Positions 46,039 to 56,071 of a stretch of DNA of 64,000 nt are shown piece after piece. A program made the position numbers and the translations under genes. Position 1 is the first letter of the stretch, and every line of letters begins with the position of its first letter. The notes beneath the pieces are model-generated. The model had not been told where the DNA came from. It worked only from the letters and a program-made list of their open reading frames with translations, and searched no databases. Source of the stretch: Haloferax sulfurifontis ATCC BAA-897 (GTDB lineage: Archaea; Halobacteriota; Halobacteria; Halobacteriales; Haloferacaceae); NCBI RefSeq assembly GCF_000337835.1, contig NZ_AOLM01000012.1:1-64000 (forward strand), read 5' to 3'.

Positions 46039-46231
46039 GATTACCTCGCGGGGATGCTGATACCTGTGAGAGGCCATCGGATAAGTCCTTCCCCGGTCTG
46101 CCCGGGGCACCGTCCTCTCGTGGTTACAGCCTAGCACACCGTAGGGCGGGCGGCTACTAATCCCTACCGACTGGACAGGGGACGGCGCGTCGATGGCTGG
46201 CGTTTTTACGCTCGAACACGACGGTTCACGC

Positions 46232-47683
46232 ATGCGACTCCTCGCGTTCGACGGCCGGATGGGTGCCAGCGGCGACATGCTCCTCGGCGCGCTCGTCGCC
46301 GCCGGTGCCGACCCGTCCGTCCTCTCGCCCGTCGAAGACGCTCTCGACGTGACCTACCGCGTCCACGAGGTCGACAAAAACGGCATCCTCGCGACCAAGG
46401 TGGACGTGCTCCTCGCGGAGGCCGACGGGGGCGAACCCCGCGGCGAGGGCCACGGCGACGACCACCGACGCCAGCCCGAACCCGAGAGCGGCGACGGCGA
46501 CGACGGGGGAGACTCCGACGACGCTGACGGTGACGACGAAGACGAGCACAGCAACCAACACCAGTACCGTCACCACGACCATTCACACGACCACGCACAC
46601 TCCCACGACCACGACCATTCACACGACCACGCACACTCCCACGACCACGACCATTCACACGACCACACCCACGCCGAGGGCCACGGCCCGCACCGGACCT
46701 ACCCCGAGGTGGTCGACCTCGTCGAGTCGATGGGCTTGCCCGCGGGCGTCGTCGAGGACGCGACGGCCATCTTCCGCGTGCTCGGCGAGGCGGAAGCCGA
46801 GGTCCACGGCACGGACCTCGACGCGACGCACTTCCACGAGGTCGGCGCGGACGACGCCATCGCCGACGTGGTCGGGGTCTGTCTCCTCCTGGAGGACCTC
46901 GGCGTCGACCGCGTCGTCACCGGCCCGGTCGCCGTCGGCGGCGGCGAGACCGAGATGAGCCACGGGACCTACCCGGTCCCCGCGCCCGCCGTGGTCAACA
47001 TCACCGCGGCGGCCGGCTGGTCGGTCCGCGGCGGCCCCGTCGAGGCCGAACTGCTCACCCCCACGGGCGCGGCCATCCTCGCGCACCTCGCCGAGGGCGT
47101 CGAGTCGCTCCCGTCGATGTCGGTCGAGTCGTCCGGCTACGGGGCCGGCGGCTGGGACTTTTCGGACCGTCCGAACGTCCTCCGCGCGGTCGTCGGCGAC
47201 GGCGGCTCGCGGCTCGTCCGCGACGAGATTACCGTCCTCGAAACGAACCTCGACGACGCCACGCCCGAGGTCCTCGGCGGGCTTCAGGAGACCCTGAAGG
47301 ACGCCGGCGCGCGCGACGTGACCATCGTCCCGACGACGATGAAGAAATCCCGCCCAGGTCACCTCGTCAAGGTCGTCGTCAGGCCGGAAGACGCCGAGCG
47401 CGTCGCCTACCGCCTCGCGGTCGAAACGGGCACGCTCGGAATCCGCGAGCACGGCGCGGGCCACCGCTGGACCGCCCGCCGCGAGTTCGAGACGGCGACG
47501 CTCGACGTCGACGGCGACGACTACGAGGTGAGCGTGAAGGTCGGAAGCGACGCCGACGGCGTCGTCTACGACCGAAGCGCCGAGTACGACGACGCGCTGG
47601 CGGTGGCGAACGAGACGGGCCTGCCGGTCCGCGAGGTCATGCGCCGCGCCGTCGACGCGGTGGCGTCGGACGACGCCGAGTGA
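46232..47683 (+). CDS. larC: LarC-type nickel-pincer cofactor protein with His-rich repeat insert
   Basis: 483 residues. An N-terminal LarC1-type domain ([19 protein letters not shown]) and a C-terminal LarC2-type region with the [14 protein letters not shown] signature are read in one uninterrupted frame. Between them lies a low-complexity Asp-rich stretch and a His/Asp repeat ([12 protein letters not shown]...) at about residues 114-146, probably metal-binding. LarC inserts nickel into the lactate racemase pincer cofactor, with LarB and LarE; those and larA are not seen in this window. It is divergent from cdc48. Confidence 0.88.
46574..46667 (+). repeat. 36-bp tandem repeat within larC encoding a His-rich segment
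   Basis: A 36-bp unit beginning cacgaccattcacacgac recurs with starts at 46,574, 46,610 and 46,646; the third copy is partial. It encodes the [10 protein letters not shown] repeats. The near identity of the copies suggests recent tandem expansion. Confidence 0.8.
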
Positions 47684-48472: not shown

Positions 48473-49219
48473 TCACTCCTCGCGCGAGCGGTGTTCGTCC
48501 AGCGCCTCGTCGATGCTCAGCTCGCCGTCGGCGACGCGCCGGGCGAGCGCCTCGTCGATGGTGCGGTTGTCCTCGGACGCCTCCCGCGAGCGCGCCTTGA
48601 TGCGCGTGAGCTCGCCCTCGGTCGGTTCTATCTCGCGGGACTCGATGCGCTCGCCGTCCCGACGAGCGATGTTCACCGCGGCGAGCACGTCGCCCATCCC
48701 GCGCGCTCCGGTGCCGAGGTAGGGCGTCGTCCCGGTTTCGTCGACGAGTTCGACCGCGACGCCGTCGAGTTCGTTGATGAGCTTCGCGCCCTGTAAGCGC
48801 GCGCCGTCGCCGATGCGGACCACGGGGTCGACCGCGTCGTCGGTCTCCTCTCGGATGACCTCGACGGCGTCCGAAAGCGGGACGTGGAACGCGGCGACGA
48901 CCGTCTCGCCGGAGAGGACCGCGACGCCCGGTCTGGTTCCGGGGTCGACGCCGACGACGGTCTGTCCGCCGTCGCCGCGGAGGCTCGCGAGCGCCTCGTC
49001 GACGGCGCGGCGCACGTCGTCGCCCGTCGCGGTCACGCGGGTCACGTTCCCGTCGGAGCCCGTGCCGCCGAGGTCGTCGTCGGGGCCGGTGAGGAGGACC
49101 TCCGCCCGTTCGGGCAGGGGGTCGCCCGGCTCGACGGTCGTAAAGGCGACTCCTCGGCTCCGCAGTTCGGACACGGCCTCGTGGTAGAGGTCGAAATCGG
49201 CGGTGGCGACGACTATCAC
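48473..49219 (-). CDS. RuvC/YqgF-like RNase H-fold protein
   Basis: 248 residues. After an N-terminal alpha/beta segment, a RuvC-like core begins VVGVDPGTRPGVAVLSG, with a catalytic-type Asp at 92. A strand ending VELVDETGTT holds Glu161, and a helix GMGDVLAAVNIA carries Asp177. These match the acidic residues of RuvC/YqgF nucleases in order and spacing. Helix-rich C-terminal repeats with Glu/Arg follow. No experimental function is known to me. It is divergent from radB, 162 bp apart, so a recombination or repair role is plausible. Confidence 0.68.
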   Translation of the reverse strand: MIVVATADFDLYHEAVSELRSRGVAFTTVEPGDPLPERAEVLLTGPDDDLGGTGSDGNVTRVTATGDDVRRAVDEALASLRGDGGQTVVGVDPGTRPGVAVLSGETVVAAFHVPLSDAVEVIREETDDAVDPVVRIGDGARLQGAKLINELDGVAVELVDETGTTPYLGTGARGMGDVLAAVNIARRDGERIESREIEPTEGELTRIKARSREASEDNRTIDEALARRVADGELSIDEALDEHRSREE

Positions 49220-49381
49220 GGGGGTCCCTTGGCGGCGGCGACGAATAAAGCGTCGTGCGCGAGTCGCCGTGGCGGCCGCGGGTCGGCGTCGAGGCGGCGG
49301 GCGGTCGCGCGACCGCGAGTGCGTCCGAGGCCGTCCGCGGCGACCGGGGTCTTTTTCGGCCGGTGGCGCCCACCACCTGAC

Positions 49382-50071
49382 GTGACAGAGTCAGTCTCCA
49401 CCGGCTGTGACGCGCTCGACGACCTCCTCGACGGCGGGTTCGAACGCGGCACCGTCACGCAGGTGTACGGTCCCTCCGCGGCCGGCAAGACGAACGTCGC
49501 GCTCTCGGCGGCGGTCCGGGTCGCCGCCGCGGGCGGCACCGTCGTCTACATCGACACCGAGGGCCTGTCGGTCGACCGCTTCCAGCAACTCGCGGAGGCG
49601 GTCGCCCCCGAGGACGTGGAGTCTGTGACCTCGCGGCTGATGATAAGCGAGGCGTACGACTTCGAGGACCAAGAACAGGCCGTCCGCGACGCCGAGGAGT
49701 TCGCCGCCAGCGCCGACCTCATCGTCCTCGATTCGGCGACCGGCTTCTACCGGCTGGAACGGACCGCCGAGGGCGACGGCGGCGAGGCGCTTCGCCGGGT
49801 GGCACGGCAGGTCACGCACCTGCTGTCGCTCGCGCGCAAACACGACCTCGCGGTCGTCCTGACGAACCAGGTGTACGCCGACCCCGACACCGACCGGACG
49901 CGCGCGCTCGGCGGCCACACCCTCGAACACTGGACCGGCACCGTCGTCCGCCTCGACCGCTTCCGCGGCGGCAACCGCCGGGCGACGCTGGAGAAACACC
50001 GCGCGAAACCCGCCGGGGAGACGGCGACGTTCAAGATAACGGACCGCGGGCTCTCCGCGGCGGACGTGTAG
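49382..50071 (+). CDS. radB: DNA repair and recombination protein RadB
   Basis: 229 residues. It is a RecA-family core without the N-terminal domain of RadA. It begins TGCDALDDLLDGGFERGTVT with Walker A GPSAAGKT at residues 30-37, and LIVLDSATGFYRLE is Walker B. The length matches RadB (about 220-235). RadB is a recombination mediator assisting RadA. The start is a GTG. It is divergent from the RuvC-like gene and convergent with the CBS-domain gene. Confidence 0.93.
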   Translation: MTESVSTGCDALDDLLDGGFERGTVTQVYGPSAAGKTNVALSAAVRVAAAGGTVVYIDTEGLSVDRFQQLAEAVAPEDVESVTSRLMISEAYDFEDQEQAVRDAEEFAASADLIVLDSATGFYRLERTAEGDGGEALRRVARQVTHLLSLARKHDLAVVLTNQVYADPDTDRTRALGGHTLEHWTGTVVRLDRFRGGNRRATLEKHRAKPAGETATFKITDRGLSAADV

Positions 50072-50172: not shown

Positions 50173-51315
50173 TTACAGGTCGTTGAGCTTCCGGAGGAGC
50201 TGGCCGCGGTAGCGCTCGTCGGCCTCGAAGCCCTTGACTTCGAGCACGTTGCGTTCGAGCTTGTCGAGGGCGACGTGGAACGCGTGTTCGGCGCCGTAGC
50301 CCTCGCCGCTTCCGGCCAGTTGGCCGTGGCTCGTGCGGAGCCGAATCTGGCACTGGATGAGCGGCGTGCCGCGGAGTTTCTCCTTGTGCTCGTGGAAGCG
50401 GACGTGAGCGTGAAGCACGCTCATCCGCTGGTACTTGTCCGCGACCTCGGTGATAGCCGAGTTGATGTCGGCGCGGCTCAGCGTTTCGAGGAGGCCGATG
50501 TTCGTGACCTGCACGTCCATCTGCTCTTCTTCGGTGTAGGTGAGCGCGCGGAGCACGTCGGTCTTGGTCACCACGCCGAGGACCTCGCCGTCGTCGTCGG
50601 CGGGCGTGACGACCAGCCCGGCGATGTTGTGTTCCAGCATGCGCGCGACCGCGTCGCGCACGCTCTCTTCGGGCGTCGCCGTGCGCGCCGGGCTGGTCAT
50701 CAGGTCGTAGACCGGGAGGTCGAGCATCCGGTCGGTGTCGCCGCGGCGGTCCTGTTTGCCCTGCCGACCCTCGTCGCGCACCATGAACTCGACGAGGTCG
50801 TAGGTGGTCAGGATACCTTCGAGGCGGCCCTCGTCGTTGACGACCGGCAACCGCGAGACGCCGTGTTCGCGGAGGCGGTTGATGGCCTGCCCGAGGTGGT
50901 CGCGCTCGCCGACGGTGACCACGTCGTCGGTGTAAATCTGCTCGACGGTCAGCGCGTCGAGGTTGTCGAGGACGGCTTCGAGGATGGCGTCCTGCGTGAT
51001 GATGCCGTACTGTTTTTCGCCCTCGTAGACCGGCGCGACCTTCGTGTCGCCCTCGACGAGCATGCGCGCGACCTCGCGCACGTTCTCGTGACGGTCTATC
51101 TTGGGGACGGCCTTCGTCAGCGCGGCCGCTTTGGTGTTGTCTTCGACGTGCGAGTTGATGAGCTGTTTCTCACCGATGACGCCCGCGTACTCGCCGTCGT
51201 CCTGAACGATGATGCCCTTAGGGTTTTCCCGCTCGAAGATGGAGCGGACTTTGCCTAATCGCTCGTCAACGTCGACCTCGATGAAATCAGGAGTGGCGAT
51301 ATCAGCAATATCCAT
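50173..51315 (-). CDS. Four-CBS-domain protein with C-terminal hibernation-factor-like domain
   Basis: 380 residues. CBS domains lie at about 1-62, 63-122, 123-185 and 200-270, the usual Bateman modules that bind adenine nucleotides. The C-terminal ~105 residues (ADINSAITEVADKYQRMSVL; HVRFHEHKEKLRGTPLIQCQ; GYGAEHAFHVALDKLERNVL) look like the HPF/RaiA ribosome hibernation fold, with the typical DKLER helix. A nucleotide-sensing ribosome or RNA regulator is a reasonable inference. The ATG at 51,313-51,315 starts directly at the first CBS domain. Confidence 0.82.
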   Translation of the reverse strand: MDIADIATPDFIEVDVDERLGKVRSIFERENPKGIIVQDDGEYAGVIGEKQLINSHVEDNTKAAALTKAVPKIDRHENVREVARMLVEGDTKVAPVYEGEKQYGIITQDAILEAVLDNLDALTVEQIYTDDVVTVGERDHLGQAINRLREHGVSRLPVVNDEGRLEGILTTYDLVEFMVRDEGRQGKQDRRGDTDRMLDLPVYDLMTSPARTATPEESVRDAVARMLEHNIAGLVVTPADDDGEVLGVVTKTDVLRALTYTEEEQMDVQVTNIGLLETLSRADINSAITEVADKYQRMSVLHAHVRFHEHKEKLRGTPLIQCQIRLRTSHGQLAGSGEGYGAEHAFHVALDKLERNVLEVKGFEADERYRGQLLRKLNDL

Positions 51316-51705: not shown

Positions 51706-53955
51706 ATGGCGTCTCCTGACAAGAACTCCCAGACTGACCGCCGCGATGGCGAAGAATCGTTCCGAGCAGACGGTGGCACCGCCGAACTGGTCCCCACGAC
51801 CGGTCCGCAGGCGATGGCCGCCCGCGCGAGTGAGCTTCCGGTCCCCGCGTCGGACCGCATCGAGTACGGCCCCGCCGACGACCTCGTCGAAGACGAGACG
51901 GACGAAGACCGCCCGGAGACGCTCCGGGAGGCCGTCCTCCGCGAGGTGAAGGCGTTCTTCGCCGCCATCGACGACGAGACGGCGTTCGCGCCCGCGCCCT
52001 CCGAGGCGTTCATCGAAGACAAGTTCTTCGACTTCGCGTTCCTCGACGGCGTCGAGGCCGTCGAACACTACTGGGTGAACAAGCCCTTCGCGTTCGTCTC
52101 CATCCTGTACGACCACGAGAAGCGCGAACACCGGTACCACGTGAGCGAGCCGCGCCTCGACCCCTTCGAGGACTTCGTGCGCGAGGACCTGACGAAGATT
52201 CTGCGCAACAGCCTGCTGTACCGCGACCTCGACGCCGACGGCGACCGCGAGGACGTCTTCGACGAGGAGGCCCGCGAGATAATCTCCGAACACGCCGCGA
52301 CGGTCGAAGAGGGGTCGCTCTGGAAGCTGTTTTACTTCCTGCTTCGGGACTTCATCCACTTCGGCCGCATCGACCCCGTGATGCGCGACCCCGGCATCGA
52401 AGACATCTCCTGTGACGGCGACGACGTGCCCGTCTACGTCTTCCACAGCGTCTACCGGGACGTGCCGACGAACGTCGTCTTCGACGACGGCGACCTCTCG
52501 TCGTTCACCATCCGCCTCGCGCAACGCGCGGGCAAGCAGGTCACCGTCTCCGACCCGCTCGTGGACGCGAGCCTCCCGGACGGCTCTCGCGTCCAGTTAA
52601 CCCTCGGCTCTGACATCGCCACCCGCGGGTCGAACTTCACCATCCGGAAGTTCTCGGACGTGCCGCTGTCGCCGGTCGACCTCGTGCGCTGGAACACCTT
52701 CAGCGTCGAGCAGATGGCGTACTTCTGGCTCGCCATCGAGAACAACCGCTCTCTCATCTTCGCGGGCGGCACGGGCTCCGGGAAGACCACCTCGATGAAC
52801 GCGGTGTCCTTCTTCGTCCCCGGCCACGCGAAGGTCGTCTCCATCGAGGACACCCGCGAAATCACCCTCCCGCACGACAACTGGATTCAGTCGGTCACCC
52901 GCGACACGTTCACGGCCGACGGCCGCGGCGAGGTGTCGATGTACGCGCTCCTGCAGGCCGCGCTCCGACAGCGCCCCGAGTACCTGCTGGTCGGCGAGAT
53001 TCGCACGGAAGAGCGCGTCGCGCTGACGTTCTTCCACTCCATCGCCACGGGCCACACCGCGTACACGACGTTCCACGCCGACTCCTCGGAGGGCGTGGTC
53101 CACCGCATGCGCAACGAGCCCCTCGGCGTGCCCGCCCAGATGCTCTCGGACCTCGACATCATCTCGGTCCAAAAGCAGATTCACCTCGACGGCGACCGGA
53201 CCCGCCGGAACATCGCCGTCACCGAAATCGCCGGCGTCGACGACGACGGCGAGGTCGAACTCCGCGACGTGTTCAAGCGCAACCCCGAAAACGACGCCCA
53301 CGAGCGCGTCGGCGACTCCGTCGTCCTCGACGAAATCGCCGCCGAGCGCGGCTGGACGAAGGCCGACCTCAAGTACGAACTCGACATCCGCGCCGACGTG
53401 CTCCGGTACATCGCCGCCTCGGGCGTCGACGACTACCTGACGGTGTCGGCGATGATTCGCCGCTTCGAGCGCGACCGCGAGGGCCTCCTCGCGCACGTCT
53501 ACGCCGAGACCTCGCTGGTCTCCGTCGACGACGAGGCCGACGAACACGACGACGACGCGGCCGACGAGGCTGACGCCCCGGCCGACGAACACGACGACGA
53601 CGAAATCGAGGTCTCGCCCGAGACCGAGCGGCTCCTCGCGGACCTGTTCGACATCGAGTTAGACGACGACGCTGACGGCGACGAAACGCCCGACTCCGCC
53701 GAGGCGGAGGCCGCCCCCGAACCCGCGCCCGCCGCCGAAAGCGACGACGCTGATGCCGGCGCAGACGACGCGGAAGCCGATTCCGCTGTCGTCGCAGACG
53801 CCGTCGAGTTCGACGATGTCGCGGAGGCCGGCCCCGCGCCGGCCGATGACGCCTCGGACGCCGACGAAACCGACGAAACCGACGAAACCGACGAAACCGA
53901 CGACTCCGAATCCGTGACCGACGACGACGACCGGGAGGCCGACGATGCCCGCTGA
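51706..53955 (+). CDS. pilB: Type IV pilus assembly/secretion ATPase PilB
   Basis: 749 residues of the VirB11/GspE-type secretion ATPase family. A variable N-terminal region precedes IEDISCDGDDVPVYVFH, an N-domain segment. Walker A is AGGTGSGKTTSMN near residue 353, the Asp box is VVSIEDTREITLP and Walker B EYLLVGEIRTEE. The last ~165 residues are Asp/Glu-rich with a DET repeat near the end, characteristic of halophile disordered tails. It powers pilus assembly in concert with PilC. Its stop overlaps the pilC start by 11 bp. Confidence 0.95.
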   Translation: MASPDKNSQTDRRDGEESFRADGGTAELVPTTGPQAMAARASELPVPASDRIEYGPADDLVEDETDEDRPETLREAVLREVKAFFAAIDDETAFAPAPSEAFIEDKFFDFAFLDGVEAVEHYWVNKPFAFVSILYDHEKREHRYHVSEPRLDPFEDFVREDLTKILRNSLLYRDLDADGDREDVFDEEAREIISEHAATVEEGSLWKLFYFLLRDFIHFGRIDPVMRDPGIEDISCDGDDVPVYVFHSVYRDVPTNVVFDDGDLSSFTIRLAQRAGKQVTVSDPLVDASLPDGSRVQLTLGSDIATRGSNFTIRKFSDVPLSPVDLVRWNTFSVEQMAYFWLAIENNRSLIFAGGTGSGKTTSMNAVSFFVPGHAKVVSIEDTREITLPHDNWIQSVTRDTFTADGRGEVSMYALLQAALRQRPEYLLVGEIRTEERVALTFFHSIATGHTAYTTFHADSSEGVVHRMRNEPLGVPAQMLSDLDIISVQKQIHLDGDRTRRNIAVTEIAGVDDDGEVELRDVFKRNPENDAHERVGDSVVLDEIAAERGWTKADLKYELDIRADVLRYIAASGVDDYLTVSAMIRRFERDREGLLAHVYAETSLVSVDDEADEHDDDAADEADAPADEHDDDEIEVSPETERLLADLFDIELDDDADGDETPDSAEAEAAPEPAPAAESDDADAGADDAEADSAVVADAVEFDDVAEAGPAPADDASDADETDETDETDETDDSESVTDDDDREADDAR

Positions 53956-56071
53956 CTCGTCGGCGTCGGTTCCCCTGCCCGACTACGAGGTCGAGCAGTA
54001 CTTCCCGCGCGAACACTTCGACGAGTCGCCCGAGGAGGTCGAGCGACTCCGCCAGCGCTACGGCTACGTCCGCACGTACTTCAAGCGCCACCCGGCGGGC
54101 CACCGCGACCTCCAACGCTGGCTGAACCAGACCCGCGTGGGCACGACCTACGACCTGTATCTCACCCAGTCGATTAAGCTGGCGGCCGTCACCGCGGCGT
54201 TCGGCTCGCTCGTCGGGCTCGCGCTCACGTTCGTCCTCGCCCGCACGGGCGTGCTGGCGAACGCGTCGAGCCCCGTTAGCCTCGGCATCGCGGCGCGGTA
54301 CGTCGCCCCGCTCACCCCCTACAAGGTGCCCATCCTCGGCGTGGTCCTCGTCGGCCTCGTCGGCGGGTTAGCGGCCGCCGGGACCTACTACGCCCGGTAC
54401 TACCTCCCCAAGAGCCGCGCCGAGATGCGCGGCCGGAGCATCGACATCCTGCTCCCGCACGCCATCGTCTACATGTACGCGCTCAGCCACGGCGGGATGA
54501 GCTTCCTCGAAGTCATCCGCTCGGTCGCCGACGCGCCCGACTACGGCGAGGTGTCCCGCGAGTTCGAGATGATCGCCCGCGACATGGACCTGTTCGGTAA
54601 CGACCTGTTCACGGCGCTCCGCAACTCCCGGAACCTGACGCCCTCGATCAACTTCGAGCAGTTCCTCGACGACTTGCTGTCGGTCCTCGACTCCGGCGGC
54701 GACGTGACCGCCTTCCTCGACCGCGAGTCCGCGACCTACCTCGAAGAGGCCCGCGACGAACAGGAGGACTTCATCGAGACGCTGTCGATGCTCTCGGAGG
54801 TGTTCGTCGCCGCGTTCGTCGCCGCGCCGCTCTTGCTCATCGTCACCCTGATGGTCATCAGCTTCCTCGGCGGCGACACGCTCGTCCAGCTGTACGCGCT
54901 GAACTACCTCATCTTCCCGCTCGGGATGGGGCTGTTCTTACTCCTCGTGGACGTGCTCTCCTCGCCGTACACCCAGGACACGGTCCGGACGAAACACGAC
55001 GTGACCGTCCTCGAAGAGATTCGGACGGTCGCGGTCGACTTCCTCGGCGCGATGCGCCGCGAGGTCCAGCGCGCCCGCGAGGCCCGCTGGGGAAGCGACG
55101 GAATCGCCTCCGACGGCGGCTTCGTCGACGAGCGACTCGACGACTACCGCCTCGAAAACGCGGTGTACGAGCTTCGGACGCTCATCGGCGACCCGCTCGA
55201 CATCATGCGCCGCCAGCCGTACCTCTCGGCGGCCTTCACGGTGCCCGTCGCGCTCCTGTCGGTCGTCGCCGTCTACGCGCTCGGCCTCGCGACGCCGAGC
55301 CTCGACGCCATGCTCGCCGACCCGTACAACACGACGGTCTGGTTCGTGGTCCTCCCGTTCGCCATCGTGGCGGTCCCGCTGACGGTGTTCCACGAGCTTC
55401 GGACCCGCCGCGAGCGCACCCTCGAACGGCGCTTCCCCGACACGCTGAACCTGCTGTCGAGCGCCAACCAGATGGGCATCTCGCTGGTCGAGTCGCTCGC
55501 GCTCGTCTCCCGCTGGTCGAACGGCGCGCTCGCGGACGAACTCCGCGCGCTCCGCAACGACATCCGCTGGAACCACGACGCCCACGCGGCGCTCATGGCG
55601 TTCGCCACCCGGCTCAACGTCCCGCAACTCTCGCGGGTCATCCGGCTCATCGCCAGCGGCGGCCGCACCAGCGGCGACCTCTCGCGCGTCCTCAGCGTCG
55701 CCGCCGAAGACACGCGCAACCGCTACAAACTGGAGAAGTCCCGCCGTCGCGCGATGGGCTCGTACATCGCCATCGTCGTCATCGGGTACTTCGTCTACCT
55801 GTTCGTCATCCTGATGCTCGGCGCGAGCTACCTCGCCCCGCTCGCCGAGATGACCGCGCCCACGACGGCGTCGAACGGGCAGGCGCTCCCCATCGGTATC
55901 GGCTCCGTCCCGCTGGCGAACTTCCACGTGGTGTTCTTCCACTCCGCGCTGATTCAGGCGGTCGGAAGCGGGCTCCTCGCCGGCAAACTCGCCGACAACA
56001 GCGCCCTCAGCGGGCTGAAGTACGCCCTCGGACTGTCCGCGCTGGCGCTCGTCGCCTTCGCACTGGTGTAA
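53945..56071 (+). CDS. pilC: Type IV pilus membrane platform protein PilC
   Basis: 708 residues, two TadC/GspF-like halves, each with conserved cytoplasmic helical domains and membrane helices (IKLAAVTAAFGSLVGLALTF; APLLLIVTLMVISFLGGDT; TVPVALLSVVAVYALGL; ALGLSALALVAFALV at the end). Motifs include SHGGMSFLEVIRSVADAPDY, typical of archaeal PilC. It anchors the pilus ATPase in the membrane. The start overlaps pilB by 11 bp, and the stop is 4 bp before the first pilin-like gene, so all are one operon. Confidence 0.94.
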   Translation: MPADSSASVPLPDYEVEQYFPREHFDESPEEVERLRQRYGYVRTYFKRHPAGHRDLQRWLNQTRVGTTYDLYLTQSIKLAAVTAAFGSLVGLALTFVLARTGVLANASSPVSLGIAARYVAPLTPYKVPILGVVLVGLVGGLAAAGTYYARYYLPKSRAEMRGRSIDILLPHAIVYMYALSHGGMSFLEVIRSVADAPDYGEVSREFEMIARDMDLFGNDLFTALRNSRNLTPSINFEQFLDDLLSVLDSGGDVTAFLDRESATYLEEARDEQEDFIETLSMLSEVFVAAFVAAPLLLIVTLMVISFLGGDTLVQLYALNYLIFPLGMGLFLLLVDVLSSPYTQDTVRTKHDVTVLEEIRTVAVDFLGAMRREVQRAREARWGSDGIASDGGFVDERLDDYRLENAVYELRTLIGDPLDIMRRQPYLSAAFTVPVALLSVVAVYALGLATPSLDAMLADPYNTTVWFVVLPFAIVAVPLTVFHELRTRRERTLERRFPDTLNLLSSANQMGISLVESLALVSRWSNGALADELRALRNDIRWNHDAHAALMAFATRLNVPQLSRVIRLIASGGRTSGDLSRVLSVAAEDTRNRYKLEKSRRRAMGSYIAIVVIGYFVYLFVILMLGASYLAPLAEMTAPTTASNGQALPIGIGSVPLANFHVVFFHSALIQAVGSGLLAGKLADNSALSGLKYALGLSALALVAFALV

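Follow-up and report, generated by a model that had tools for sequence, protein, structure and literature searches.

Genes and features of the locus

We analyzed a window of 64,000 nucleotides from Haloferax sulfurifontis ATCC BAA-897 (contig NZ_AOLM01000012.1, positions 1 to 64,000). One of its open reading frames starts with ATG, has no internal stops, and encodes a protein of 380 amino acids (Table 1), which we call HibA1. The GC content at its three codon positions (0.71, 0.35, and 0.88) follows the pattern expected for haloarchaeal coding DNA. The protein has a computed mass of 42,520 Da and a computed pI of 4.87, and Haloferax denitrificans has a 100% identical copy. A sequence-only reading of this DNA had described four CBS domains followed by a region that resembles the hibernation factors HPF and RaiA, and had placed the end of the protein at HVALDKLERNVLE. 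That end was wrong: the protein continues for 21 more residues (VKGFEADERYRGQLLRKLNDL).

The gene lies tail to tail with radB, about 100 bp away. We are confident in the radB call, which scores 424 bits with the NCBIfam model (cut-off, 278 bits).

Table 1. Features of the hibA locus (positions within the window)
Feature	Positions	Strand	Basis
hibA (HibA1 type), 380 aa plus stop	50173..51315	-	Open frame; full-length match to 9sr9_H
CBS1, approximately residues 1-57, degenerate adenylate motif (GEKQ)	51145..51315	-	Pfam CBS, motif counts; approximate boundary
CBS2, approximately residues 64-117, degenerate adenylate motif (TQDA)	50965..51126	-	Pfam CBS, motif counts; approximate boundary
CBS3, approximately residues 122-182, T170-x-x-D173 conserved	50770..50952	-	Pfam CBS; S/T170 and D173 in 80/80 relatives
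Residues 182-199, aligned with the "PTC loop" of P. abyssi HibA (190-207)	50719..50772	-	Alignment
CBS4, approximately residues 200-260, T250-x-x-D253 invariant	50536..50718	-	Pfam CBS 202-258; 80/80
C-terminal HPF/RaiA-like domain, residues 267-380	50176..50517	-	Profile and fold searches, secondary structure β-α-β-β-β-α
radB, tail-to-tail neighbor of hibA, possible functional partner	49379..50071	+	NCBIfam RadB equivalog NF006861

Several other genes are nearby. A 248-amino-acid protein that adjoins radB (48473 to 49219, reverse strand) has no match in Pfam or NCBIfam and is found beside radB in several families; its stretch VVGVDPGTRPGVAVLSG may be similar to the initial strand of nucleases of the RuvC/RNase H-like type. 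Farther along, positions 46193 to 47683 (forward strand) encode a nickel insertion protein of the LarC type (E = 1e-126 with Pfam Ni_insertion), whose long histidine- and aspartate-rich insert probably binds metal. Upstream of hibA, positions 51706 to 56071 (forward strand) encode a PilB3-like T2SSE ATPase and a T2SSF membrane protein, which make up an assembly pair for the archaeal type IV pilus.

Identification as HibA

When compared with HibA from P. abyssi (PDB 9sr9_H) by phmmer, residues 3 to 377 of the protein aligned with residues 6 to 388 (E = 5.4e-49, 171 bits). HibA was published in April 2026 (Nat Commun) as a family that is widespread in Archaea (PMC13324472). In P. abyssi, its C-terminal domain sits in the mRNA channel of the 30S subunit, and its CBS module is found in three positions on the 50S subunit (PMC13324472). 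HibA inhibits translation and is abundant on native 70S ribosomes from P. abyssi; in T. barophilus, deleting hibA lowered stationary-phase 70S by about 60% and lengthened the lag (PMC13324472).

A haloarchaeal member has also been described. HVO_2384 from Haloferax volcanii was reported in 2025 (mBio) to combine tandem CBS domains with a hibernation-factor domain; it has a mass of 42,521 Da and a pI of 4.87, and it co-purified with an inactive variant of the acetyltransferase Pat2 (PMC12607858). As judged by published description, mass, and pI, HVO_2384 has the same architecture as our protein and possibly does not differ from it. The architecture and the role of this gene are already known (PMC13324472, PMC12607858). 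Since the family assignment holds and has independent confirmation, the gene can be annotated as hibA instead of "CBS domain protein." In the literature, we found no measurement of ribosome binding for a haloarchaeal protein of the HibA1 type.

The C-terminal domain

Pfam's Ribosomal_S30AE (PF02482) matches residues 284 to 361 with E = 0.0009 and 20.4 bits when the whole protein is scanned, or 21.8 bits for the domain alone, which is just below the gathering cut-off of 23.7 bits. When 35 relatives were scanned one by one, 26 had a weak S30AE/HPF match. A search of the H. sulfurifontis genome with PF02482 gave no match; the haloarchaeal domain scores just below the cut-off. Relative to the stand-alone bacterial HPF/RaiA proteins (PF02482), HibA1 has the HPF fold but a score below the Pfam cut-off.

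We also built a profile from 33 C-terminal regions and compared it with all sequences in the PDB (E up to 1). Thirteen chains were found, led by 9l96_a (E = 7e-41) and P. abyssi HibA (9sr9_H, E = 5e-23); the other 11 are 10 hibernation factors and one unrelated UPF0339 protein. As a control, the reversed sequence had no match. In the papers available to us, we found none on 9L96 or on structures of hibernating haloarchaeal ribosomes or their factors.

AlphaFold2 predicted a β-α-β-β-β-α topology for the C-terminal region, both within the whole protein (mean pLDDT 79, pTM 0.62) and for the domain alone (pLDDT 82, pTM 0.70), which was modeled separately because CBS proteins fill the fold search for the whole protein. 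The sequence-only reading had suggested comparing a predicted structure of this region with HPF/RaiA, and this comparison puts HPF/YfiA proteins nearest: with the model of the domain, the top 28 rows from Foldseek (E from 2e-5 to 2e-3) and the top 33 rows from VIA-align (Z from 12.4 to 7.4) are all HPF/YfiA/pY. The best row from VIA-align is HPF from E. coli (6h4n_x; Z = 12.4, 94 residues, 2.2 Å), and families other than HPF begin at Z of about 7. The fold library ends at 2026-04-08, so the absence of 9sr9 and 9l96 from these lists says nothing about similarity. The resemblance to HPF/RaiA is borne out by the sequence profile, the predicted topology, and both fold searches.

The domain has strongly conserved residues in every HibA1 that we aligned. 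P. abyssi HibA has two archaeal insertions in this domain: the second, KFRGVHL (324 to 330), corresponds to KLRGTPL here, with R315, G316, P318, and L319 invariant, and the region of the first insertion (SAL, 283 to 285 in P. abyssi) aligns but is one residue shorter.

The CBS module and the adenylate site

The four CBS domains of the sequence-only reading were confirmed: Pfam CBS matches four stretches (E = 2e-43), and the model of the module matches four-CBS discs. Its structural matches at Z of 19 to 23 include SriD, SriA/B, and Dri, which were solved in complex with ribosomes, as well as MJ1225 and the structure of SSO3205 with AMP. In the papers available to us, we found none on SriA/SriB. 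The computed pI of the module is 4.5; acidic proteins are usual in halophiles.

The [ST]xxD motif is kept in CBS3 (T/S170 and D173) and CBS4 (T250 and D253) in all 80 haloarchaeal proteins, while CBS1 and CBS2 are degenerate. P. abyssi HibA has a single site for AMP or ATP, at CBS3/4, and its CBS module binds AMP with a Kd of 12 µM, ADP with 65 µM, and ATP with 113 µM (PMC13324472). The motif pattern agrees with this site, and on the basis of these residues, adenylate binding is predicted for HibA1.

The loop between CBS3 and CBS4 is also conserved. In P. abyssi, it (190 to 207) enters the peptidyl-transferase center (PMC13324472). The CBS3-CBS4 spacing is 28 in 49 of 50 HibA1 proteins, the same as in P. 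abyssi HibA, and R190, G192, R196, L198, and D199 are invariant in the HibA1 alignment. The tip of the loop (184 to 189) has pLDDT below 50 in the AlphaFold2 model.

Distribution and a second paralog

Full-length matches of the HibA1 type are present in 143 of 145 genomes of Halobacteria. Of the two exceptions, G129 has only a paralog, HibA2, and G131 (96% complete) has neither type; these are natural test cases for redundancy. H. sulfurifontis itself encodes a HibA2 (contig C11, 9296 to 10498) with 401 amino acids, 42% identity to HibA1, and a long loop, rich in glycine, that joins CBS3 to CBS4. More generally, the loop of HibA2 is 15 to 25 residues longer than that of HibA1 and is often glycine rich (spacing of 43 to 53 versus 28). 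HibA2 is patchy: by our own count, it is in about 44 of 141 genomes, with several copies in some. In several genomes with few contigs, HibA2 is not on contig C1.

Three groups in a phylogenetic tree (HibA1, HibA2, and the outgroups) are each set apart from the rest by a branch that has 100% bootstrap support. Within HibA2, families are intermingled in the tree, a pattern that suggests transfer. By its scores, the solved chain 9l96_a belongs to the HibA2 type (385 bits with the HibA2 query, 239 bits with HibA1).

Association with radB

The tail-to-tail pair of hibA and radB recurs across many genera, always in an identical arrangement: 43 of the 80 named haloarchaeal loci have it. Among 20 loci that were picked to span families, 11 have the pair, while the genes on the other side of hibA (pilB and pilC) are never kept there. 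None of 20 loci outside Halobacteria has radB adjacent, and the Haloarcula loci also lack this adjacency. There are reports of physical association as well: RadB, a Sir2 deacylase, GINS23, and GAN were recovered together when Pab0961 (P. abyssi HibA) was purified, and the same paper cites a personal communication that Hvo_2384 interacts with RadA and RadB (PMC3820547).

The near-universality of HibA1, the patchy long-loop paralog, and the pairing of hibA with radB are new, but modest, additions to what has been published.

Proposed role and alternatives

We think that the protein is a haloarchaeal HibA of the HVO_2384 type that acts in ribosome hibernation, with a probability of roughly 87%. 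When growth stops, the C-terminal HPF/RaiA domain (about 267 to 380) would enter the small subunit's mRNA/tRNA channel. The four-CBS module would then fill the large subunit's vacant tRNA sites, and its loop at 182 to 199 could reach the peptidyl-transferase center. HibA on the ribosome would block translation and protect the 70S ribosome until regrowth. An adenylate, preferably AMP, would be expected only at the CBS3/CBS4 site. By homology, we infer that the Haloferax protein plugs ribosomes as the HibA proteins of P. abyssi and T. barophilus do. Several points count against hibernation: the S30AE score of HibA1 is below the Pfam cut-off; the cytosol of a halophile, with molar KCl, is unlike the conditions in Pyrococcus; and the reported RadB/RadA interactions of the family suggest a possible job besides hibernation.

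The shape of the C-terminal domain need not imply a ribosomal target: a CBS adenylate sensor might use an HPF-shaped domain to act on another RNA or protein, much as dsRBD proteins do with a partly shared fold. The S30AE score would fit with this, as would the dsRBD chains lower in the fold lists (Z of 6 to 7). But in VIA-align every HPF ranks above the dsRBDs, whose alignments span just 70 to 80 or so of the 118 residues, the sequence profile matches HPFs and not dsRBDs, and the homology to ribosome-bound HibA extends over the whole length, so we consider this the least credible alternative. It is hardly more plausible that HibA2 is the working hibernation factor of haloarchaea and that HibA1 has drifted to another task. 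Although the solved chain 9l96_a falls into the HibA2 group and not into that of HibA1, it is HibA1 that is nearly universal, that keeps the loop spacing of P. abyssi HibA, and that is more similar to that protein (171 bits, versus 131 bits for HibA2).

The association with radB bears on another set of alternatives. If the main job in haloarchaea were DNA recombination or replication, then the CBS module might sense AMP and tune RadB/RadA, and ribosome binding would be secondary or a form of storage. Both the kept adjacency and the reported interactions favor this idea, yet the HPF domain is conserved in every aligned HibA1, full-length matches are nearly universal, the adjacency is absent from Haloarcula and from the loci outside Halobacteria, convergent genes are not co-transcribed, and native P. 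abyssi ribosomes carry abundant HibA (PMC13324472); we view this as quite improbable. The link to radB does fit with the reported RadB/RadA binding, and a second role in recombination, alongside hibernation, is possible but doubtful. We are equally skeptical of a more specific version, in which idle ribosomes and the RadA/RadB machinery would draw on one AMP-binding protein, HibA1, with the energy state setting the split between the part on ribosomes and the part that restrains or assists recombination. Such a switch is consistent with the kept hibA-radB pair and with the RadB/RadA interactions reported in two archaeal lineages.

The sequence-only reading had also proposed that this one protein could couple the energy state of the cell to the inactivation of ribosomes. 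Its CBS module and HPF/RaiA fold stand and correspond to the published HibA family, but the energy-state link is unproven: AMP and ATP caused no major change in the conformations of P. abyssi HibA on the ribosome and left its binding largely unchanged (PMC13324472). The authors of the HibA study suggested that AMP/ATP might matter for engagement or for release, or might regulate a sequestering partner (PMC13324472). The implied novelty also fails, because the family and the haloarchaeal protein had already been described. The hibA gene of Haloferax does offer a genetically tractable haloarchaeal system for studying the effect of AMP on hibernation and the reason for the radB adjacency and the interactions with recombination proteins. 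These points about radB and AMP leave the picture of the published HibA family unchanged.

Comparison with known systems

The closest characterized relatives are the HibA proteins of P. abyssi and Thermococcus barophilus (Pab0961 and TERMP_00697; PDB 9sr9 and others; PMC13324472), which have four CBS domains and a C-terminal HPF/RaiA domain and are colinear with HibA1 over the full length. The CBS3-CBS4 loop spacing and the [ST]xxD motifs of CBS3/4 are common to P. abyssi HibA and haloarchaeal HibA1. However, the haloarchaeal proteins are distant in sequence, have an acidic CBS module, and are accompanied by a second paralog, and the neighboring gene is radB instead of GINS23.

Bacterial HPF/RaiA/YfiA proteins share the fold of the C-terminal domain (Z of 10 to 12), but they lack a CBS module, are only about 10 to 20% identical in sequence, and lack an archaeal insertion that the HibA1 domain probably has. 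Conversely, the ribosome inhibitors Dri (Pyrobaculum) and SriA-D (Methanosarcina) consist of CBS domains alone (9e6q, 9e7f, 9znf, 9zng, and 9zni): their CBS modules are built like that of HibA1 and were seen on archaeal ribosomes, but they have no HPF domain, and Dri has two fused four-CBS modules where HibA1 has one module and an HPF domain. MJ1225, SSO3205, and AMPK gamma have a four-CBS, adenylate-binding disc like that of HibA1, but without a ribosome-binding domain.
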